DNA of 33,885 nt, taken from a virus. Position 1 is the stretch's first letter, and every line of letters starts with the position of its first letter. Below the pieces are notes generated by a model, which was not told the DNA's origin, made no database searches, and was given only the letters and a program-made list of their open reading frames with translations. Shown here piece by piece: positions 12,185 to 33,885 of the stretch. Made by a program: the position numbers and the translations under genes. The DNA is taken from positions 1 through 33,885 of the IMG/VR virus record IMGVR_UViG_3300020185_000004. The stretch is one strand, 5' to 3'.

Positions 12185-12221
12185 AAATTAAAGAAGGCTT
12201 ATTCGCCCTCCTACCCTCCCT

Positions 12222-12250
12222 ATCCTATATATATCTATTTGGTTAAACAA
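12222..12250 (-). promoter_or_regulatory. Candidate sigma70-type promoter for the late operon
   Basis: On the minus strand TTGTTT (12250-12245) is followed after 17 bp by TAGGAT (12227-12222) within an AT-rich GATATATATAGG stretch. An A8 run lies upstream at about 12264-12271 like an UP element. It would start transcription about 30 nt before the putative small terminase gene. Both hexamers match consensus at only four positions, and the overlapping TATATA gives an alternative -10. Confidence 0.35.
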
Positions 12251-12323
12251 TACTCTTAACCTCTTTTTTTTCTAGAATGCCCAGAATGCCCCTGATGCCC
12301 ATAGATTAGGGGGCGGGTTAACC
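12241..12323. promoter_or_regulatory. GGTTAA/TTAACC dyads around the late promoter
   Basis: GGTTAA at 12241-12246 and TTAACC at 12256-12261 form a 6-bp dyad with 9-bp spacer overlapping the candidate -35. A complete GGTTAACC palindrome stands at 12316-12323. Repetition of the same hexamer on both sides of the 9-bp repeat block suggests operator sites. Chance occurrence in AT-rich DNA cannot be excluded. Confidence 0.35.
12274..12319 (+). repeat. Half-copy of the 9-bp iteron array plus G5C core
   Basis: Three 9-bp units (AGAATGCCC, AGAATGCCC, CTGATGCCC; 12274-12300), an 8-bp spacer ATAGATTA, then GGGGGCGGGTT at 12309-12319. The same architecture with the same spacer length occurs twice, mirrored, at 20503-20647. 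Here no clear mirrored partner follows. It lies just upstream of the candidate late promoter and at one edge of the early gene block. Confidence 0.85.
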
Positions 12324-12437
12324 ATACCTTATAACTTAATGGAATTAAAACCCCTGGCATATATCTAAAAGAAACAGACACTTAACGTAAACTCAAAATA
12401 CCCTTTTATTGTATCTGGGTGGGAACTACATATACAC

Positions 12438-12797
12438 GGTCCGCAAGTTACCCCCCCCGGTACCTGTTTGACTCTGTGGTTTGACGAATGATTCCGGTTG
12501 ATCTGCATGATGAGCGGTCGAGTGTGAATGTCCACGCGGGAGCCACAGAGGACACACACACGGATAACATCAGCATATGAATAGAATCCCAATGACAGAG
12601 CAAGTGCGCTCCTTAGCCAAAAGTTCCTATTTGTCATTACCGCCTTCGGAAAGAGTATCACCCGCGGAATATCCACAAGGGCCGCGAGAATAACGGTTTC
12701 CACGCTACGCGCGGACCCTCCGCGATTCACTCGGAAGTCCCCCTTGCAGAGATTCCTTTCCCGGGTGATCCACTGTCCTTGTCGGAAACGACAGGAA
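12438..12797. other. Non-coding divergent region with successive potential stem-loops
   Basis: The 635-bp gap 12185-12819 contains no convincing gene. Its right half is richer in G+C than its AT-rich left half and holds a series of inverted repeats. They are CTCTGTGG 12472-12479 with CCACAGAG 12543-12550; AATGACA 12591-12597 with TGTCATT 12632-12638, enclosing GAGC/GCTC; ATCACCCG 12657-12664 with CGGGTGAT 12762-12769, enclosing AGGGCCGCG 12678-12686 with CGCGGACCCT 12710-12719 (one bulge); and a GAAA-capped hairpin at 12779-12796. The first three stems and the last do not overlap. They could form a structured leader RNA, an ncRNA or origin DNA. One 8-bp repeat is expected by chance over this length, so significance is moderate. 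Confidence 0.45.
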
Positions 12798-12819
12798 CTT
12801 TCAACTAAGGAGAAATACT

Positions 12820-13879: not shown

Positions 13880-14092
13880 ATGGAAGTAATCAAAATCACA
13901 CATAGCTACCAAGGCGAAACCACTGTCAAGGTGGCGCGTGAGACTGCAAAGGCAGTTTTACTTGCTGGTAACGCAAGCGAGGCTTGGTTTCCTAAAAAGG
14001 CAATTAGCGATGATAACTGTGTCGCGGATTGGTTTTCGCTCAGTATTGAGCATTGTTTTTTGTGGCAAGCGCCATACACAGATGCCGCATAA
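13880..14092 (+). CDS. 70-residue early protein, unknown
   Basis: Starts MEVIKITHSYQGETTVKVA; a compact alpha/beta pattern with TAKAVLL and WFPKKAISDD (about 36-45), then a tryptophan-containing C-terminus (FLWQAPY). The W-x-P-K-x-x-I element recalls small phage proteins in which a predicted strand carries WIPKS; these have no assigned function that I know. Preceded by an operator-like array, a hairpin and a good Shine-Dalgarno (AAGGGAGATAAAC), so it probably begins a transcription unit. Net charge close to neutral; no membrane segment. Confidence 0.65.
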   Translation: MEVIKITHSYQGETTVKVARETAKAVLLAGNASEAWFPKKAISDDNCVADWFSLSIEHCFLWQAPYTDAA

Positions 14093-14114
14093 GCGGCCTT
14101 TAACAAAAACTGTT

Positions 14115-14131
14115 CGGGGCTCAACACCCCG
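14115..14131 (+). promoter_or_regulatory. Leader stem-loop before the ArdC-like gene
   Basis: CGGGG (14115-14119) pairs with CCCCG (14127-14131) around CTCAACA. It is followed by TATCAACCAACGGAG and the ATG at 14160. There is no T-run, so a leader or mRNA-processing hairpin rather than a terminator. Confidence 0.5.
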
Positions 14132-14159
14132 GACTTTATCAACCAACGGAGTACAACCT

Positions 14160-14987
14160 ATGAACTATGATCGAATCCTTGACCTCGTATCGTCTGCGAT
14201 GAAAGACGAGACAACGTGGCGTAAGACATGGCAGTCACAATCTGGCTTACATCAAAACTGGATTAGCAAAAAGCCATACAACGGCACGAACCAGCTGATG
14301 ACTATGATCTCAGCTCACATCTCAGGCTACACAAAACCCTACTGGCTTACCTACAAGCAAGTTGTTGAGCTTGGGGGCACAGTCAAAGGGCAGAAAGCCA
14401 CGCCTGCAATCTTCTTTGGATCTGCTAAAGACAAGAACCACGAAGACAAAACCTACAAGTTTGCAAAGCTGTATAACATCTTCAACATCGAGCAGACTGG
14501 CATTGAGTTACCTGAGATAGAAACCAGAGTCACAAAGCTTGAGCGCCCTTACGAGATAGCCCAAGCATTGAATGTCGAAGTCGAATCTAATCCAGCCCAT
14601 GGCCCTAGCTATAGTCCGTCGCGTGACTTGATACGGATGCCAATGCCTGGGCAATTCGAGTCTGACGATGCACATCAATCTACCTTTTACCATGAATGCA
14701 TTCACTCCACTGGTCACAAGTCTAGGCTTGACCGTGATCTTGCCGGCTCATTTGGCAGTGAAGACTATGCAAAGGAAGAGCTAGTAGCAGAGCTTGGATC
14801 TATCTTCTTATGCGCACAGCTTGGTGTGACGTATGACATTGCTCAACACGCGAGCTACCTTTCCTCATGGGAGAAGGCAATCAAGTCAGATCCTAAATAC
14901 CTACTTAAAGCCGCGACGTCAGCAAGAAAGGCAAGCGAGTATTGCATGTCGCAGTTCACCATGATGCGGAAATATGAAGCCGCATAA
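14160..14987 (+). CDS. ArdC-like antirestriction protein (ssDNA-binding domain + metallopeptidase)
   Basis: 275 residues from ATG at 14160 with GGAG upstream; an in-frame extension of 74 codons overlaps the previous gene and lacks a ribosome site. N-terminal domain (about 1-115; NGTNQLMTM, YWLTYKQVVELGGTVKGQKA) is the ArdC_N ssDNA-binding type. C-terminal domain carries HECIH at 178-182 and E211 in KEELVAELGS, the zincin active site of the polyvalent MPTase family. Such proteins are carried by plasmids and phages and can protect incoming DNA from host restriction. All zinc ligands are intact. Its place near the beginning of the early block suits a protein needed at once after DNA entry. Confidence 0.85.
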   Translation: MNYDRILDLVSSAMKDETTWRKTWQSQSGLHQNWISKKPYNGTNQLMTMISAHISGYTKPYWLTYKQVVELGGTVKGQKATPAIFFGSAKDKNHEDKTYKFAKLYNIFNIEQTGIELPEIETRVTKLERPYEIAQALNVEVESNPAHGPSYSPSRDLIRMPMPGQFESDDAHQSTFYHECIHSTGHKSRLDRDLAGSFGSEDYAKEELVAELGSIFLCAQLGVTYDIAQHASYLSSWEKAIKSDPKYLLKAATSARKASEYCMSQFTMMRKYEAA

Positions 14988-16718: not shown

Positions 16719-17870
16719 GTGAGCTTACTTGATTACTGTATAACTGAACATCAACGCAAAGTTATTACTCTGCACGAAGAAGGGCTAGGCTATCAAAAGA
16801 TCGGCGAAAGGCTCGGCATTGGCAAATACTCTGCCAGAGACATTGTAAAAAATGTAAAGGGCAAGGCCGCATCAAGAGGTCACTCTCCGGATCACGATAT
16901 GACTCACACTGTCCCTGTAGGATTTAATGTTAGGGGCGTCTCCACTTATTACAACGATGAAGGTAAGCCAGTAGGCCAATGGGTCAAGTCGGCCAGCGAC
17001 AAAGAAGTTCAGTTCCAAATGATGATCGAGCGAATTGAGTTAGCGTGCGAAGGCATTAAACCTTGGAAGCCAGTCAAAAAACCAAAGGTCACAGAGGACG
17101 ATCTGCTGTCATTGTTAGTTATTACCGACTTTCACCTAGGCTCTTATTGCTGGGGTCAGGAGACTAGCGAGGACTATGACACTAACATGGCGCGGGATTT
17201 GTTCTTGTCTAGCGTTGCAGAAATGATCGACAGCACCCCAAAAAGCAAGATCGGAATGCTTTGCAATCTCGGTGATTTTCTTCATTGGGATGGCCTTGAG
17301 CAACTCACTCCGTCGGGCAAAAATCTTTTAGAAGGCGACTCAAGATACTCCCGCATCGTAGATATAGCTATGACAGTTATGGATGAGGCTGTCCGAATGA
17401 TGCTAAAGAAGTACGAGAAGGTGGTCTTTGTATGTGCTGAGGGCAATCACGACATTGCTGGCTCTATCTGGCTACGAAAGTTTATCCGCAAACTGTATGC
17501 AAACGAGCCAAGGCTTGAGGTCATCGACAACGACTTCCCTTATTACGCCTATCGACATGGAGAGACCATGCTTTGCTTTCATCACGGGCATAAGGCAAAG
17601 ATGGGAAGTTTGCCAAAGGTATTTGCTAGCGAGCCACGGTTCCGAGAAGACTGGGGCAAGTCTAAGATCGCTTATATCCATTCGGGTCATTACCACCATG
17701 AAAAAGTATTAGAAGACGCAGGGGCCATCACAGAACAGCACCCCACGCTTGCTTCCCGAGACTCATACGCCACTCGGCTGGGGCTTATGTCCCACAGAGG
17801 CGCAAAGGTAATCACGTATGACAACGAGGACGGCGAAGTAAGTCGCATCACAATAAGGCCAAGAGCCTAA
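16719..17870 (+). CDS. HTH-calcineurin-like metallophosphoesterase
   Basis: 383 residues, GTG start with AGGGGGAAG in front. Residues about 8-50 form an HTH (HEEGLGYQKIGERLGIGKYS, as in sigma-4/resolvase-type domains). The phosphoesterase core follows from 130 with all five metal motifs: D137-x-H139 (TDFHLG), G185-D186 (LGDFLHWD), N243-H244-D245 (EGNHD), H288-H289-G-H291 and H321-SG-H324. This is the calcineurin-like family, which includes Mre11/SbcD nucleases and cyclic-nucleotide phosphodiesterases. The DNA-binding head argues for a DNA-linked role. Similar fusions are common in marine podoviruses without proven substrate. It converges with the minus-strand gene, overlapping 4 bp. Confidence 0.82.
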   Translation: MSLLDYCITEHQRKVITLHEEGLGYQKIGERLGIGKYSARDIVKNVKGKAASRGHSPDHDMTHTVPVGFNVRGVSTYYNDEGKPVGQWVKSASDKEVQFQMMIERIELACEGIKPWKPVKKPKVTEDDLLSLLVITDFHLGSYCWGQETSEDYDTNMARDLFLSSVAEMIDSTPKSKIGMLCNLGDFLHWDGLEQLTPSGKNLLEGDSRYSRIVDIAMTVMDEAVRMMLKKYEKVVFVCAEGNHDIAGSIWLRKFIRKLYANEPRLEVIDNDFPYYAYRHGETMLCFHHGHKAKMGSLPKVFASEPRFREDWGKSKIAYIHSGHYHHEKVLEDAGAITEQHPTLASRDSYATRLGLMSHRGAKVITYDNEDGEVSRITIRPRA

Positions 17871-19339: not shown

Positions 19340-20506
19340 ATGCAAGACGACTGGGCAGACTACTGCGAGTCAGTAGGACAGAAACCCGCTTTTGTAATCA
19401 AAGAAGAACTCATCAACGAAGCCTTTCCGGGAAACCCGTATTACACAAAACAGAATGGATCGTCGTCACTCTCAAGGCTCATGGGCGTAGCAGTTAACAG
19501 CCGCATAGAAGAGCTTGAGGAGCGCCTGGCGCAAGAGCGAGACGTTATCCCCGGCATGATTACCACTGGAACCGTAACGCTCGTATACGCCCCGTCAGGA
19601 GCTGGGAAGACCGTATGGATTTTAGGCAATCTATTCCAGAGTATTCGGAATAACCTGATAAAAGGCTCTAACGTAATCTACTTTAACGAAGATGACGGAG
19701 CCAAAGGGGTGCTTCAGAAGGCCAAGATGGGCAACCGACATGGCATTACAATGGTCACTTTAGCTAACTCACCAGACCCATCGCTTCGTACGACAACCGA
19801 CGCCCTTCATCTGCTCAACGCGATCAGAGAAGAAGGCGAGGCTAACGGTAAGATTGTTATCTGCGACACCCTAAAGAAGTTTGCGCCAGTCCTGAACAAG
19901 GGCGACATGCGCGAAGTGCTTCACGTTTTTCGTGAGTTTGCGGCGGCAGGCGGCACCGTAATCCTGCTAGGTCACTGCAATAAGCACCGAAGCATGGACG
20001 GTCGCTTGATCTATGAAGGCGTGGGCGATCTAAAGGCTGACGTTGACAATATGTTTGGCCTTGACCCGCTTAACGACAAGTTTTCTTTTTACCAAGAGCT
20101 ATTAGTAATCAATGAAAAAGATCGTAGTCAAATTAGTTTTGAGGGTGGCTTTAAATACAAGCAGACCAGTGCGACAGTAGGCTACGAAGAGTCAGTAGAC
20201 TCCGTTCAGTTTATGAGTGGCGATGACATCAGCGAACTCAAAGACAAGCAGAAGTCTCAGATCAATATTGGCAAAGCAATAAGTCGATATGAAGATGAGT
20301 ATGTATTGTTGAGTAGTGTTATGACAGAAGGCAGGCTCTACGCTCAAACGGAATTGTTTGACCTGCTACGCGATGACGACATAAATCCAAACGGATGCAC
20401 CAAGAAAACACTGCGCAACTGCATTGATTTACTCAAGGGAAACAACTTAAAGCTAGAACGCAAAGGCACACACGGCAAGAAATACTATCGCTGGATGCCA
20501 ATGTAA
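19340..20506 (+). CDS. RepA/DnaB-type RecA-fold ATPase, putative replicative helicase
   Basis: 388 residues. Residues 1-70 form an N-terminal region, then the AAA_25/RepA-like core: Walker A APSGAGKT at 84-91, Walker B KIVICDT at 171-177 (D176), and GHCNKHRS at 211-218 in the sensor position. NEDDG near 116-120 is typical of hexameric RepA/RadA relatives. The C-terminal ~110 residues (TEGRLYAQTELFDLLRDDD; KTLRNCIDLLKGNNLKLERK) look like a winged-helix DNA-binding domain. With no polymerase in the genome, this is the main replication protein, likely loading or acting as helicase. Its stop codon lies within the first unit of the 20503-20647 repeat array. Alternative: a Sak4-like recombinase. 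Confidence 0.75.
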   Translation: MQDDWADYCESVGQKPAFVIKEELINEAFPGNPYYTKQNGSSSLSRLMGVAVNSRIEELEERLAQERDVIPGMITTGTVTLVYAPSGAGKTVWILGNLFQSIRNNLIKGSNVIYFNEDDGAKGVLQKAKMGNRHGITMVTLANSPDPSLRTTTDALHLLNAIREEGEANGKIVICDTLKKFAPVLNKGDMREVLHVFREFAAAGGTVILLGHCNKHRSMDGRLIYEGVGDLKADVDNMFGLDPLNDKFSFYQELLVINEKDRSQISFEGGFKYKQTSATVGYEESVDSVQFMSGDDISELKDKQKSQINIGKAISRYEDEYVLLSSVMTEGRLYAQTELFDLLRDDDINPNGCTKKTLRNCIDLLKGNNLKLERKGTHGKKYYRWMPM

Positions 20507-20647
20507 TGCCCAGAATGCCCAGAATGCCCACAATGCCTTCAATGCCCATGGTTTAGGGGGCCCCTTAGCAGAGCAAAATGACCAACCCGCCCCCTTTTTC
20601 TGGGGCATAAGGGGCAAACGGGGCAAACTGGGCAAACTGGGCAAACT
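20503..20647. repeat. Mirrored 9-bp iteron array with G5C cores, candidate origin/operator
   Basis: Left arm: five 9-bp units (GTAATGCCC, AGAATGCCC x2, ACAATGCCT, TCAATGCCC; 20503-20547), 8-bp spacer ATGGTTTA, core GGGGGCCCCTT (20556-20566). Right arm is the mirror: core AACCCGCCCCC (20584-20594), 8-bp spacer, then GGGCATAAG, GGGCAAACG and three GGGCAAACT (20603-20647). Arms are 64 bp each around a 17-bp centre. Opposed AGAATGCCC/GGGCAAACT units pair at 7 of 9 bases. It starts inside the helicase stop and ends 5 bp before the next gene's Shine-Dalgarno. A related half-site is at 12274-12319. Confidence 0.9.
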
Positions 20648-28366: not shown

Positions 28367-29014
28367 TTAAATAGTCCTAAAGTACATCTCTTCTGGGTGC
28401 TTGGCCGCATCAATCGCTATTGCGTCTGATAGATACTGGTTAGCAATTTGGAAGTATTCTGCTGTAGATGTTCCGCCTGTCTCTCCTCGCTCACGCGCAA
28501 GTAACGCTACCGCCAGATGAATAACGGGTTGAGCAGGAATAAGTAGTGAATCAGTGTTAGCTGATAAATCTACCTGCCGCTTAGTAACGTCAAAACGCAG
28601 GTTGTATACGCCATCAGGCGTAGGACCAACTAACACTTGCGTGTCGCCGCTAGAATCTAAACCGTTATAAGTGTAGTACTGAGGTGCACCTTCTGATGTG
28701 CTAGCTATATACAGTGCATTGTTAAACCAATCCTTAGACTGGTAGCTCATAAAGCAATTTTGAGTGTCATTTAAAACCGACATGACTTTTACGTTATCGC
28801 TACCACCCGTTAGCGAATAGGTATTGTCCGATGCAGTTGTAGAGATTGTGATTGTCTCTCGCAGTGCAGACCAGTCAGCCGCTTGACCAACTAATGTTTT
28901 TGCATCGTTAATAAAGTCGCCAACCATCTTAATGTAAGCAGTGCTTGTAACGGATGTAGTCTCTTCCTCTCGAAGACGACGCAATACGCTATTCATTAGG
29001 TTTAAATATGTCAT
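28367..29014 (-). CDS. Tail tubular protein A-like (adaptor)
   Basis: 215 residues. N-terminal helix TYLNLMNSVLRRLREEE, then FINDAKTLVGQAADWSALRE and a beta middle (TISTTASDNTYSLTGGSDNV), VGPTPDGVYNLRFDVTKR, ending in helices AVALLARERGE and YFQIANQYLSDAIAIDAAKH. This is the standard layout of the gp11/TTPA adaptor that joins portal to nozzle. Starts inside the stop of the collagen-like gene (ATGA), ends one base before the nozzle gene. Confidence 0.8.
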   Translation of the reverse strand: MTYLNLMNSVLRRLREEETTSVTSTAYIKMVGDFINDAKTLVGQAADWSALRETITISTTASDNTYSLTGGSDNVKVMSVLNDTQNCFMSYQSKDWFNNALYIASTSEGAPQYYTYNGLDSSGDTQVLVGPTPDGVYNLRFDVTKRQVDLSANTDSLLIPAQPVIHLAVALLARERGETGGTSTAEYFQIANQYLSDAIAIDAAKHPEEMYFRTI

Positions 29015-32000
29015 GCGTTTCTAGCGCCTCCAGTAAACATTCCTATTCGTAGTGGTTGAGCAAGCTTACGCCGTGTCAGTCCCTGACGGAATGGGTCAAA
29101 ATTAACAGGCTGTATCGGTGTGGCCGCGGCTATTTGACCTGGCATCATTGCTTGTTGTGCCGCAAGACCCATTAATCCAGCGCCAAGCCCTTGGCCTAAT
29201 CCGGCTATTCCTTCTCCAAGACCTCCAAGCCCCTCTCCAACTGTTTCGCCCAATCCTCCAAAACCCGTTTCTAATTGAGTTTTAATATTTTCGGATAGCC
29301 CTTGAATGTTTTCTCCAAGACTAGTATTAGCGCCTTCAATAGAAGTTACTACTGTCTTTATGTCGGTTCCCATGTTGGTTGCTAGACTGCTTAAGCCTTT
29401 AAGGACACTTGCTTCTAGCTCTGTAATATCCCCGCCAACACCAGTTCCTAGCTTAACAATAGCATTCTCGATATCTGTAGTTTGCACTCCTAAAGAGTCA
29501 GCAAGACTTTTAACCCCCTCATTTACCGCGGTTTTTACTCCGCCTACTGCTTGACCAACATCGCTAATGCCCTCTTCAAGACCAGTAATTCCTTCTCCAA
29601 GTCCCGTTCCAAGCGTTGTAACTGAATCAACTACAGACTTAATGTCTAAGCCTAGGCTAGTGGAAAGATCGCCCATTCCTTTAAGAATTTCTACTTCAAG
29701 ATCGGTAAGGTCTTTCCCCGTTGTAGTTCCAAGATTAGAGACGGCTTTAACCAAAGCCTCTGTTGATAAGCCAAGGCTTTCAGCAAGACCTTTAATTCCT
29801 GTTTGAACACCGGTAACTCCTGTACCAATGTCAGTAAGCTGTCCTCCTAAACCTTTAATGTCTTCAGAAATGCCTTCTTCAAGACCTGTAACAGACTTGA
29901 CCACATCTCCAATATCAACACCTAAATTTTCAGAAAGATCTCCCAGTCCTTTAAGAATGCCAGACTCTAATTCAGTAAGATCCTTTCCGGTTGTAGTCCC
30001 AAGTTCAGACACCGCTTTAACCAAAGCATCAGTTGAGAGTCCTAAGCTTTCGGCAAGATCTTTAATTCCTTTATCTACGCCGCCAATTCCTGTGCCAATA
30101 CCGGTAAGTTGCTCTCCTAAATCTTTAATACCATCTGCAACGCCTTCTTCAAGACCTGTGACGGACTCAACAACATCCCCAATATCTGTACCAAAGTCTT
30201 TTGAAAGATCGCCAAGCCCTTTAAGAATTTCAGACTGTAAGCTGGTAAGGTCTTTCCCAGTAGAATCGCCAAGATTAGATATTGCTTTAATTAAGCCATC
30301 CGTAGACAACCCTAGGCTTTCTGCTAAATCATCAATTCCGCCTTTAACTCCGGCAATATCCGTAGTTATGCCTTTAAAATCCCCGCTTAACTGAGTGGCA
30401 ACTTGCTCTGCGGTTAATCCTTCAGGAATTCCAGCAACAATGTTTTTTACATCTTTAACAGTTGCGGAAGGGGGAATAGTTATTGCGCCTGAAATTTGTT
30501 CTAGTTGATCTTCTGTAAATCCATAGTTAGACAAAATGTCGCGAACGTCACTGGGGCTTGCAACATCAAGGCCGCCTACAGCTTCTTTAATATCTTTTAC
30601 GGCAGAATCTAAATCCTCACCAACAACAATGCCTTCTAAAGCATTTGCTAAATCAAGCCTATTTATATTTTCAGGCAAAGCGCCAACAATCTGATTAATT
30701 TGGCTTTCAGTAAACGAAAATCCAGACAGTGCATCTTCTACATCTTTAGGGCTGGCAATAGCCACTTGCCCAATAGCGGTTTCAAATAAATTTTTAATTT
30801 GGCTTGTAGTAATTTCTTCAGGGAATTCAATTCCTTTAATAGCCTCGCCAACAATTTTAGTAATCTGATCCGACGTTACACCTAAAGGTATTCTTTCGAT
30901 TTCACCTTTAAGAATTTCTTCTATTTGCTTGGTCGTTATGCCTTCTGGAAATTTAATTCCCTCGACAGCGCTATCAATTATCCTGCGTATTTCTTCTGGA
31001 TCTGCGTCACGACCCGGCTCGCCTCTTGGTCCTTGCTCACCCCGTTCACCGTCTGCACCGTCTATTCCATCAGTACCATCAGTGCCGTCTACTCCATCTC
31101 TGCCGTCAGTACCATCAGTGCCGTCAATGCCATCTGTTCCGTCTTGACCCGGATCTCCTCTTTCTCCATCTAAACCATCTAAACCATCTAAACCATCAAT
31201 TCCGTCTATCCCATCTACGCCATCAACTCCATCCCGACCCGGGTCTCCGTCTATCCCATCTATCCCGTCTCTGCCAGGATCTCCAGCTTGGCCATCAACA
31301 CCATCGATACCATCGATACCATCTACGCCATCAATCCCGTCTATCCCATCTACGCCATCAATCCCGTCTATCCCATCTACGCCATCACGCCCATCAACAG
31401 GAGCAGGTGCAGGGGTAGGCGCAGGCTCTGGAAAGTACTCGGGGAACATGCCAGTTGTAATTGGGTTTTCTGTGTCTGTAGGCGCAGGAGTAGGCGGAGG
31501 AGTTGCTCCGGCTTGACCGTCATCTGACGGGGGCTGTTCTGTAGGAGTAGGAGGCTCTACAGGCTCTGGCTCAGGCGGTGGTTCTGGGACTACCTCTGGT
31601 TCAAACTCGTAATCTTCTGCCTCAAACTCCATACTTGATTCTAAAGGAGTATCTGGAGTTTCTTCAGGGGTTACTGCCGCAAGTCGAGCTTCTTCTGTTT
31701 CAAAAACTTCCCCTTGCTCTACCTCTTCCCATGTTTCTTCTAAGGCGTCGTAATAGTTATTACTTTGTGTATTTTCTAAAACTATGTCGGCCATCTGCCT
31801 TCCGGCTCCACCGGGAAGTGACCCACCATTTGCAAAGTGAGAGTCAAGCCAAGACATAGTATTGCCTTCTAAGTTAACTCTTCCGCTAGCATCAGCATTT
31901 ACTTCACCCTGATATTTAACAAGGTTTGTTCCGTCAGTTAAATAGTAGCCGTCACCTTCAACATCAACTAAATAATATTCGCCGTTTATTGACCCCGGCT

Positions 32001-33729
32001 CTAAACCTACGTGATAAGCAAGGTATGTGTCGTCAATGCTCATTGCGCCGTATTGATTTAATTGAGTTCCATCAGCAAGCATTTGTTCTGCGCGAGACCC
32101 AGTAACCCCGTCTTCTGGATAAATAATCTGACCTTCAGGACCAACAACCTCTGTTGTATCTGCTCTAAGATCTGCCGTTGTGTCTTCTAACTCAGATCCT
32201 GCCGCGTCTACTGTACTTTCTCCGGGAACACTAAAGTCTGGTGTTGGCTCTGGGGCGTACATTTCATTAAGGCTGTCAGAAATTCGTTGCAAAGAAGCCG
32301 TCATTGCTTCTGACTGTTGCGTTGCAAGAGCTTCGTTAACAGTGTTTTCCATGTTTCTTAGGACTTCTTCTTCAGCGTCTGCGCCAACTGATTGTCCTAA
32401 CCGTAATGCCTCTAACCGTTGCTCTTCTGTTACTGGCTGACCTGCTTTTATAGCGTCTTGAATTGGGCCCATTATAAAATTAGCAAGCTCTTGTGCGCCG
32501 GTCATTACACCAGACGCAACAATTTGATCCATGTCTAAACTACCGTCAAACACTCCCTGCCGTATCGCAGTCATGCCCATAGCGTTTAAAACATTGTCTA
32601 CTTCTTCTATGCCTGTTATGGCGGTAACGTCAAAGCCTAGCTGGTCGTTTAGATTTTTAAGAACTTCAGGCGACATAACTTGACTAAGAGCCTGTCCTAG
32701 CCCTGCTGTCGCGGCTGTTTGCAACAATTGATCTGGGTCAATACTGCCTGTAGTAACTGCCTGTGTAATTGCATTGCTTAAAGTTGCAGATCCAACGGTG
32801 CCTAAAGCTGGGGCTACTGCGGCTACAGCGGCTCCTGTACCTACCGTCAAAGCAGTAACCATTGCCATCTTAACGTAGTCAGTAAGACCAGCATGATCTT
32901 CGTTAACAGTCTTTACATAGGCAGAACCGTTCCACCGAAACTTGTCACCCGTCTCACTGTAAACAGTATCGCTAACGCCGTACTTTTTTAGCAGTGCCTG
33001 GTTAGCTTCTGAGTTAACCCAATTGTTATAGGCGGCAGATTGATTTTGTGTGCGCTCTCCAAACAACTCTTCATACGTAGATGACGCATCGTCACCGTAC
33101 TGAGTTAGATCCTCACCCTCAAGGATCATTAGATCGTCTTCAGACAAGCTACCTGTGTACTCGTCCCAGTTACCTACGTCGTAATCGCCAGCCTGAATTA
33201 ATTCTTCACGCTCAGTCATGTAAGCAAGGTAGTTATCAAAGTCGCCAAAGACTTCAGGCAGACGGTTTACAGTGTCGCCCTCAAAGTATGCTCGTAGCTC
33301 TGCTTCGGTTACTTGCTCTGCCTCTCGACTTCCGTACAAAGAAGTTGGACTAGCATCGCCACGCTCTGCGCCTTCAAAGAATGTAAAGGTCATTTCAGCG
33401 GGAGCTTCTGGCTCACCCTTAACGTCCTGCATAGGCTTAATACCGCCTGTCTCAGGCGCAGGGGCTGGAGCATCAGTACCAGTCTCTTCTGTTACACCAC
33501 CAACAGGACCGCCATTAGGATCAAAGCCGCCAGTTTCTCCAGCAGGTGCTTTAGTAGGATCAGTAGTAGGAGTGCCTGTGGGTAATGTCTCAGTAGGCGT
33601 AGTAGTTTTAGTAGTGGGCGCAGGCTTAGTCAGCATTCCTTCAGCCCTTTCAGGACTTACAGGTACGTACCCAATAGGAGTATGCTCAACAAGCTGTCCG
33701 TTTATTTCTAAAATATCACCGTACGCCAT
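29011..33729 (-). CDS. Giant collagen-like repeat virion protein, 1572 residues
   Basis: Largest gene. Start taken as ATG 33729 (GGAAG upstream); a TTG extension lies inside the holin gene. Order: N-terminal MAYGDILEINGQLVEHTPIG; Thr/Pro-rich linker (~40-105); acidic region; hydrophobic Gly/Ala segment (~283-303); Pro-rich stretch (~700-765); 43 uninterrupted Gly-x-y triplets (~778-907), mostly GID, GVD and GTD; weak helical repeats (~908-1120); then at least four ~90-residue repeats (DLAESLGLSTDALVKAV...GKDLTELE..ILKGLGDLS); Gly-rich C-terminus ending QPLRIGMFTGGARNA. Probably a long trimeric fibre or whisker, or a tail/neck component; location next to tail genes supports a virion role. Confidence 0.75.
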   Translation of the reverse strand: MAYGDILEINGQLVEHTPIGYVPVSPERAEGMLTKPAPTTKTTTPTETLPTGTPTTDPTKAPAGETGGFDPNGGPVGGVTEETGTDAPAPAPETGGIKPMQDVKGEPEAPAEMTFTFFEGAERGDASPTSLYGSREAEQVTEAELRAYFEGDTVNRLPEVFGDFDNYLAYMTEREELIQAGDYDVGNWDEYTGSLSEDDLMILEGEDLTQYGDDASSTYEELFGERTQNQSAAYNNWVNSEANQALLKKYGVSDTVYSETGDKFRWNGSAYVKTVNEDHAGLTDYVKMAMVTALTVGTGAAVAAVAPALGTVGSATLSNAITQAVTTGSIDPDQLLQTAATAGLGQALSQVMSPEVLKNLNDQLGFDVTAITGIEEVDNVLNAMGMTAIRQGVFDGSLDMDQIVASGVMTGAQELANFIMGPIQDAIKAGQPVTEEQRLEALRLGQSVGADAEEEVLRNMENTVNEALATQQSEAMTASLQRISDSLNEMYAPEPTPDFSVPGESTVDAAGSELEDTTADLRADTTEVVGPEGQIIYPEDGVTGSRAEQMLADGTQLNQYGAMSIDDTYLAYHVGLEPGSINGEYYLVDVEGDGYYLTDGTNLVKYQGEVNADASGRVNLEGNTMSWLDSHFANGGSLPGGAGRQMADIVLENTQSNNYYDALEETWEEVEQGEVFETEEARLAAVTPEETPDTPLESSMEFEAEDYEFEPEVVPEPPPEPEPVEPPTPTEQPPSDDGQAGATPPPTPAPTDTENPITTGMFPEYFPEPAPTPAPAPVDGRDGVDGIDGIDGVDGIDGIDGVDGIDGIDGVDGQAGDPGRDGIDGIDGDPGRDGVDGVDGIDGIDGLDGLDGLDGERGDPGQDGTDGIDGTDGTDGRDGVDGTDGTDGIDGADGERGEQGPRGEPGRDADPEEIRRIIDSAVEGIKFPEGITTKQIEEILKGEIERIPLGVTSDQITKIVGEAIKGIEFPEEITTSQIKNLFETAIGQVAIASPKDVEDALSGFSFTESQINQIVGALPENINRLDLANALEGIVVGEDLDSAVKDIKEAVGGLDVASPSDVRDILSNYGFTEDQLEQISGAITIPPSATVKDVKNIVAGIPEGLTAEQVATQLSGDFKGITTDIAGVKGGIDDLAESLGLSTDGLIKAISNLGDSTGKDLTSLQSEILKGLGDLSKDFGTDIGDVVESVTGLEEGVADGIKDLGEQLTGIGTGIGGVDKGIKDLAESLGLSTDALVKAVSELGTTTGKDLTELESGILKGLGDLSENLGVDIGDVVKSVTGLEEGISEDIKGLGGQLTDIGTGVTGVQTGIKGLAESLGLSTEALVKAVSNLGTTTGKDLTDLEVEILKGMGDLSTSLGLDIKSVVDSVTTLGTGLGEGITGLEEGISDVGQAVGGVKTAVNEGVKSLADSLGVQTTDIENAIVKLGTGVGGDITELEASVLKGLSSLATNMGTDIKTVVTSIEGANTSLGENIQGLSENIKTQLETGFGGLGETVGEGLGGLGEGIAGLGQGLGAGLMGLAAQQAMMPGQIAAATPIQPVNFDPFRQGLTRRKLAQPLRIGMFTGGARNA
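29300..30360 (-). repeat. 270-bp repeats encoding ~90-residue helical modules
   Basis: Within the collagen-like gene, the region encoding (A)ESLGLSTDxLVKAV recurs at an exact 270-bp spacing (anchors 29771, 30041, 30311) and once more after 282 bp (29489). The copies are diverged in sequence but similar throughout, so old duplications kept by selection. Confidence 0.85.
31321..31387 (-). repeat. 27-bp exact tandem repeat in collagen-coding DNA
   Basis: A 27-bp unit (three Gly-x-y triplets on the minus strand) occurs twice perfectly, 31321-31347 and 31348-31374, with 13 further matching bases. A likely place for slippage in steps of nine residues without frame loss. Confidence 0.85.
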
Positions 33730-33730
33730 A

Positions 33731-33885
33731 TTACTTCTTCCAGTTAGCCAGGCCGCGAAGGCCAAACGATGCCGCTACAGCCGCACCCAAGAAACCTTTG
33801 TACCACTCAGGCATAGCGTTGAGTGCTTCAAAGCCCGACATTACTACAGGAACCATGCTAGGAAAGAACGCAAGAATACATGGGA
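33731..33885 (-). CDS. Holin-like membrane protein, C-terminal part (same gene as 1-317)
   Basis: C-terminal codons of the gene described at 1-317. The 317 nt from the left end plus 28 unique nt here make 345 nt, exactly 115 codons including the TAA stop at 33731-33733. This in-frame join independently confirms circularity. The encoded end is the second hydrophobic segment and the basic tail. A purine-rich stretch (GGAAGAAG) just before the TAA also serves as Shine-Dalgarno for the collagen-like gene, in the arrangement TAA-T-ATG. Confidence 0.7.
   Translation of the reverse strand, partial: PCILAFFPSMVPVVMSGFEALNAMPEWYKGFLGAAVAASFGLRGLANWKK
33759..33885. repeat. Right copy of 127-bp end overlap
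   Basis: Identical to positions 1-127. Removing one copy gives a unit genome of 33,758 bp. Confidence 0.95.

Follow-up and report, generated by a model that had tools for sequence, protein, structure and literature searches.

The DNA analysed here (the window, meaning the whole stretch of 33,885 nucleotides) is a complete circular-map phage genome of 33,758 unique bases, since the same 127 bases stand at its start and at its end. The early operon runs rightward over about 12.8-21.7 kb and the structural genes run leftward from 12.2 kb round to 21.7 kb. An array of short repeats, which I will call site 1, fills the gap between the gene for a 388-residue ATPase (19340-20506) and a NinB-like gene, and a related half-site (site 2) lies 8 kb from it, between terS on the minus strand and the early operon on the plus strand. 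The features discussed below are as follows.

19340 to 20506, plus strand: ATPase of 388 amino acids (AAA_25, RecA-fold, RepA-like) and probable initiator, from Pfam AAA_25, with RecA-like folds among weaker structural matches.
20291 to 20503, plus strand: predicted winged helix at the C-terminus of the ATPase, residues 318-388, with recognition helix 355-365 containing Arg359, from the AlphaFold (AF2) model and structural matches.
20503 to 20547, plus strand: left arm of site 1, five 9-bp units, with TGCCC at 20507, 20516, 20525 and 20543 and TGCCT at 20534, read from the sequence, beyond chance and kept in relatives.
20548 to 20602, no strand: centre of site 1, with spacer ATGGTTTA (20548-20555), GGGGGC (20556-20561), a 27-bp middle, GCCCCC (20589-20594) and spacer TTTTTCTG (20595-20602).
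20603 to 20647, minus strand: right arm of site 1, five mirrored 9-bp units, with GGGCA at 20603, 20612, 20621, 20630 and 20639.
12274 to 12316, plus strand: site 2, a single half-site of three units and 8-bp spacer, ATAGATTA followed by GGGGGCGGG, with TGCCC at 12278, 12287 and 12296, found by an array search of the same genome.

Direct reading of site 1 confirms the mirrored 9-bp units, 8-bp spacer (the length of both spacers) and G5C core that an earlier sequence-only reading of this DNA had described, with some corrections of detail: the arms exist, and their length is 59 bp (5x9+8+6) and not 64 bp; one of the five left units said to end in TGCCC ends in TGCCT (20534); and the pairing of opposed units at 7 of 9 bases is true of the outer two unit pairs, the inner pairs matching at fewer. 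The ATPase stop codon (20504-20506) is touched by the first left unit, and 18 bp separate the end of the right arm from the ninB-like start (20662). Measured against 200 simulated genomes with the same trinucleotide make-up as the window, the lag-9 self-match over 36 positions was 30 for the left arm and 33 for the right arm (simulated maximum 23), and nine TGCCC/GGGCA occur within 150 bp at site 1 (simulated maximum 4); chance accounts for neither arm, and the array is real. No AT-rich unwinding element adjoins the array in the window, the centre (20556-20594) is not AT-rich, and AT-rich flanks were seen solely in the most distant relatives. There were no Rfam matches at gathering score in the whole window and a tRNA search returned nothing; a terminator scan gave nothing at the site 1 array, and a sigma-70 promoter scan gave fewer hits than in shuffles and none above chance at site 1.

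The phages that carry the array together with this ATPase form a family of uncultured marine phages; prophage origin was considered and rejected, the only case being one short MAG contig. The ATPase had no match in 50,697 phage records, and its relatives in IMG/VR number well over 100. Both the window and each of the 123 relatives examined (80 from a first search and 43 more divergent) have the array 3' of the ATPase gene, and the sequence-only reading, which was to be abandoned if related genomes lacked the array, stands on this point. In about 10 of the first 80 relatives the array sits behind an inserted gene; a small gene lies between the ATPase stop and the array, with the array kept behind it, in L008, L010, L011, L019, L026, L028, L030, L032, L033 and L038. 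On the other side, an exonuclease gene comes between the array and ninB in G016 and G020, and ninB is further away in G025, so the array goes with the ATPase and not with ninB. The left arm has 3 to 6 contiguous units, mostly 5 or 3, in most relatives where it can be counted, the spacer is 8 bp in 81 of 86 distinct relatives where it can be measured, and 72 of 95 distinct loci have GGGGGC as their core, the others carrying variants of it. When viral contigs were scanned for the half-site with TGCCC units, 24 of the 26 stretches found were within this phage family, and the array hits outside it, L315 and L321, were rejected as chance matches inside coding sequence of unrelated contigs. As a separate observation, between L022 on one side and L031, L025 and L035 on the other, the core's G-type half (TTTAGGGGGCGGGTT) and C-type half (TTTTACCCCCC) look swapped between the arms, as if the centre had been inverted.

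What kind of protein is encoded next to the array? AAA_25 is the sole Pfam domain of the ATPase that reaches its cut-off (44.5 bits against a curated cut-off of 27, residues 55-217), and helicase activity is implied by this domain alone. The family AAA_25 includes RSF1010 RepA, and the window ATPase shares with RSF1010 RepA and other AAA_25 ATPases a domain scoring above that cut-off; a PDB profile search reached RepA of RSF1010 (1g8y) at E=2.8 only. The AlphaFold model is poor over the ATPase core (pLDDT mostly below 60) and confident over the C-terminal 70 residues (block means of about 85-92), and the best structural matches of this C-terminal domain (CTD) are winged-helix domains, mostly from DNA-binding proteins. 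The CTD is thus predicted, from the model, to be a winged helix with residues 357 and 359 on its recognition helix. PPR proteins, which the PDB search with the single protein placed at residues 322-360, were judged an artefact of repeated matching. This is the only replication-type ATPase gene of the phage family, and the ORFs scanned included no recognisable phage DNA polymerase, primase or further initiator.

The repeats themselves come in two classes, TGCCC (class G, most arrays) and T[A/C/T]CCC (class C, both arms in 18 of the 80 first-search loci), and the class can be read from the ATPase. Residue 359 is arginine in all 50 distinct class-G proteins and leucine in all 13 distinct class-C proteins, a link that rests on one substitution event and later exchanges because the class-C CTD has a single origin (see below); residues 333 and 340 also separate the classes. 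Among the shared proteins tested, columns that predict the class perfectly occur in the ATPase only, and the ninB, ninG, SSB-like, excisionase-like, Erf-like and exonuclease proteins were rejected as readers for having no such column; g24 columns reached 0.91 at best, from just 5 class-C sequences, and the comparison left out HTH83, HTH39 and ArdC, for which there were too few homologues or no class-C members. In class C the G of TGCCC is replaced by A, C or T without order, which is what one would expect if an arginine-guanine contact, itself an inference, had been lost. It is well supported by these comparisons that Arg359 of the predicted recognition helix goes with the G of TGCCC, and the CTD of the ATPase is very probably the reader of the units at both sites.

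The CTD adjoins site 1, whereas site 2 lies 8 kb away and so provides evidence free of linkage. Site 2 is one arm with no mirror partner, and the relatives that have it carry it at the same place, in a conserved frame of CCCTCCCTATCCTATATATA ... GGGGGCGGGTT ... TATACCTTAGAACTTAATGG; neither this site nor the constant adjacency of array and ATPase in relatives had been picked up by the sequence-only reading. Site 2 regions were gathered through the neighbouring anchor CTCCCTATCCTATAT, blind to the units, which gave 78 stretches, many of them the site 2 region. The class of the site 2 units matches the class of the genome's own ATPase in 14 of 14 genomes (8 class G, 6 class C), these being the genomes, the window included, in which a site 2 array is present and the ATPase could be typed, counted by eye and related to one another and hence not independent. 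Between L006 (class G) and L016/L017 (class C) the site 2 units differ, and the core and 3' sequence are identical over more than 100 nt. This concordance is what a trans-acting reader would predict. The site is absent from a clade of about 80% identity, which keeps site 1, and displaced in G018, and so it is not essential throughout the family. The anchor CTCCCTATCCTATAT was also seen with other surroundings in L330, L333, L357, L363, L367 and L371, often with AAAACAACCC or AAATCAA downstream, and this block is perhaps promoter-like and common to further phages.

Such a placement raises the question of whether the arrays are operators through which the ATPase or another protein regulates ninB and the early and late operons, neither site being an origin. 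I consider this unlikely. Site 2 is indeed intergenic between divergent operons and held in a conserved frame, and the right arm of site 1 reaches the ninB ribosome-binding region; however, site 1 stays with the ATPase where ninB is displaced and is present in every relative, including the large clade in which site 2 is missing, and the promoter scan found nothing above chance there. Mirrored sets of 3-6 tandem units are also unusual for an operator.

The history of the two classes points towards exchange. On a tree of the N-terminal part of the ATPase the class changes 9 times, 6 of these changes being forced by well-supported branches, and a tree that unites class C in a single clade is rejected (p-AU 1.8e-60); the CTD tree does place class C in one clade, with 1 change. 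It follows that the class-C reader had a single origin and later passed from lineage to lineage. CTD and array class agree in all 6 independent pairs, and in five of the six sister pairs the sliding identity from which exchange boundaries were taken is high up to the CTD, low over CTD and array, and recovered in ninB. This is sharpest for L021/L025, with 95-100% until about 300 nt before the stop, 46-81% over the CTD and most of the array, and 99-100% from ninB on; the four other pairs repeat this pattern with softer edges, and in L034/L030 an inserted gene interrupts it. The CTD and the array are exchanged together as one cassette, at least six times between close relatives. Since the two are neighbours, their co-transfer alone could be linkage. 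The sequence-only reading had named the 388-residue ATPase as a candidate binder, very probably rightly, as its CTD both covaries and co-transfers with the repeats, and the same findings lend strong support to its interpretation of the repeats as iterons.

Covariation at the switched base also bears on whether the site is read as duplex DNA or as a folded strand. Site 1 might act as a cruciform, as a single-strand origin hairpin, or, in the leader of ninB, as an RNA stem in which internal loops recur regularly, and its arms do form an extended stem interrupted by 2x2 loops (RNA -74.3 kcal/mol, z -4.7; DNA z -3.4), with a precedent in the stem-loop origin downstream of the rep gene of pRN1 (PMC4234260). 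However, inverted arms fold by construction, and at the switched base the mirror partners agree in only 15 of 41 pairs (10 loci) in class C, against 17 of 17 in class G (four loci checked). Of 21 distinct unit pairs, moreover, 20 show differences between the arms at 1-4 or more positions, and site 2, as a single arm, has nothing to pair with. The cruciform or RNA stem that had been thought possible from the sequence is consequently disfavoured, because mirror pairing is lost at the base that switches class, and I hold the folded-strand alternative to be quite improbable; reading of site 1 as duplex DNA fits these comparisons better.

Site 1 is, in my view, probably an iteron-type replication origin read by the CTD of the phage's own RepA/RecA-fold ATPase. 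Given recognition by the CTD, origin function is itself quite likely; among possible functions it is the most likely one by analogy with the SaPI Rep, Cch2, P4 alpha, pRN1 and PLE systems, and the swapping of the CTD tail and the repeats as one module likewise points to an origin with exchangeable specificity. As a cis-acting replication site, site 1 would present two head-to-head sets of 9-bp iterons to the predicted C-terminal winged helix of the ATPase, whose gene lies immediately upstream; several ATPase subunits may line up on the 3-6 units of each arm, and through the opposed arms two oligomers would come to face each other across the G5C cores. The ATPase would then open or unwind the DNA and recruit the host replisome, the latter being suggested by the lack of a recognised phage polymerase, primase or further initiator. 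Site 2, in the control region that separates the early from the late operons, would be bound as well and serve as either an auxiliary origin or an operator, and reader domain and array together would form an exchangeable specificity cassette. More tentatively, and I regard this as rather doubtful, the AAA_25 ATPase could be a self-loading initiator acting as two opposed oligomers on the mirrored 9-bp arrays, its cassette passed repeatedly between marine phages so as to alter origin identity, for example in escaping satellites or origin-cutting nucleases, with site 2 re-matched after each exchange.

Cumulative GC skew, proposed as a check by the sequence-only reading, was run in five genomes; the minimum lies near the terS/early-operon region in four of the five and the maximum 1.3-1.9 kb 3' of the array, and since these extremes coincide with transcription divergence and convergence, the skew is confounded with transcription and uninformative about an origin. 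The nearby maximum, together with the opposed arms and the winged helix, might suggest a fork barrier or a partition site, where opposed arrays and a winged-helix protein stop forks or act in a centromere-like manner, and the weaker structural matches include a replication terminator protein (1f4k, Z 5.9). I find this hardly probable at all: winged helices are common and the terminator-protein match is unspecific, the putative binder forms one protein with a RepA-like ATPase, no ParA-type ATPase being recognised, and the coincidence of the skew extremes with transcription ends weakens the fork-barrier reading further.

How does the proposed origin compare with known ones? The initiator helicases SaPI Rep and SCCmec Cch2 use a C-terminal domain to read iterons that follow directly on their own gene (PMC7581432), and the likeness extends to an initiator ATPase, a DNA-reading C-terminal domain (here predicted) and iterons directly 3' of the gene. 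However, their helicase domain is DUF927 or D5/Primase_Cterm, neither of which was found in the window ATPase with its AAA_25 domain; the window has mirrored 9-bp units, an 8-bp spacer, a G5C core and a second half-site 8 kb away; and SaPI and Cch2 belong to islands, whereas the array belongs to phage genomes. SaPI-type origins carry an AT-rich segment between iteron sets, and the corresponding centre of the window (20556-20594) has none. P4 alpha, in a work cited in PMC4234260, reads origin repeats with a winged helix. The two systems are alike in having a helicase (here putative) with a C-terminal winged helix (here predicted) on short repeats and two separate cis sites. In satellite phage P4 these are ori and crr; site 2 is optional in the window's phage family, unlike in the P4 comparison, and P4 alpha combines primase and SF3 helicase in one protein, whereas the window ATPase has 388 residues with the RecA-fold AAA_25 only and no primase. 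The window system would work like SaPI Rep or P4 alpha on another ATPase family and is a member of neither, the SaPI type being set aside on both the helicase family and the AT-rich centre. In PLE, RepA_N domains and ori modules covary, have been swapped together more than once and are countered by the phage nuclease Odn (PMC8263062), so that DNA-reading domain and origin (here a proposed one) covary and swap jointly in both systems; PLE differs in its RepA_N initiator and iterons of about 30 bp, and an origin-cutting nuclease has been suggested as the selection there. In pRN1 the rep product ends in a winged helix and the origin lies directly downstream (PMC4234260), as would hold here for the ATPase and the proposed origin, but pRN1 depends on an intact stem-loop, lacks iterons and has a prim-pol plus SF3 helicase, whereas the window has iterons, AAA_25 and no conserved stem pairing of the pRN1 type, as the class-C mirror agreement of 15/41 indicates. 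The literature search found no description of a mirrored-array layout in phages, in line with the earlier statement that no phage element of this layout had been described; that statement was too strong all the same, as SaPI-type origins also lie directly 3' of an iteron-reading initiator helicase (PMC7581432).

These observations provide a replication hypothesis for uncultured marine phages whose ATPase is without a match in the phage records searched. Furthermore, the natural variants, with two specificity classes and one candidate reading residue, make recognition directly testable, and a distant site re-matched in the same genome after a change of specificity offers a clean case of protein-site coevolution, raising the question of what drives the switching.

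Several other features of the window deserve mention. The stretch 12185-12819 is a long noncoding region between the divergent operons, with conserved blocks CCCTCCCTATCCTATATATA, TATACCTTAGAACTTAATGGAAT and TTTTTTGTATCTGGGTGGGAAC, a GC-rich variable part and no Rfam match. The gene at 13938-14987 encodes an anti-restriction protein of ArdC type (Pfam ArdcN and MPTase-PolyVal). A metallophosphoesterase resembling DNA-repair exonucleases is encoded at 16719-17870, with a likeness to a sigma-70 helix-turn-helix in its first 50 residues (TIGR02937, 19.3 bits, below cut-off), and in G016 and G020 a relative sits between array and ninB. Lastly, 29011-33765 is an ORF of 1584 amino acids with long collagen-like G-x-D repeats (DGIDGIDGVDG).
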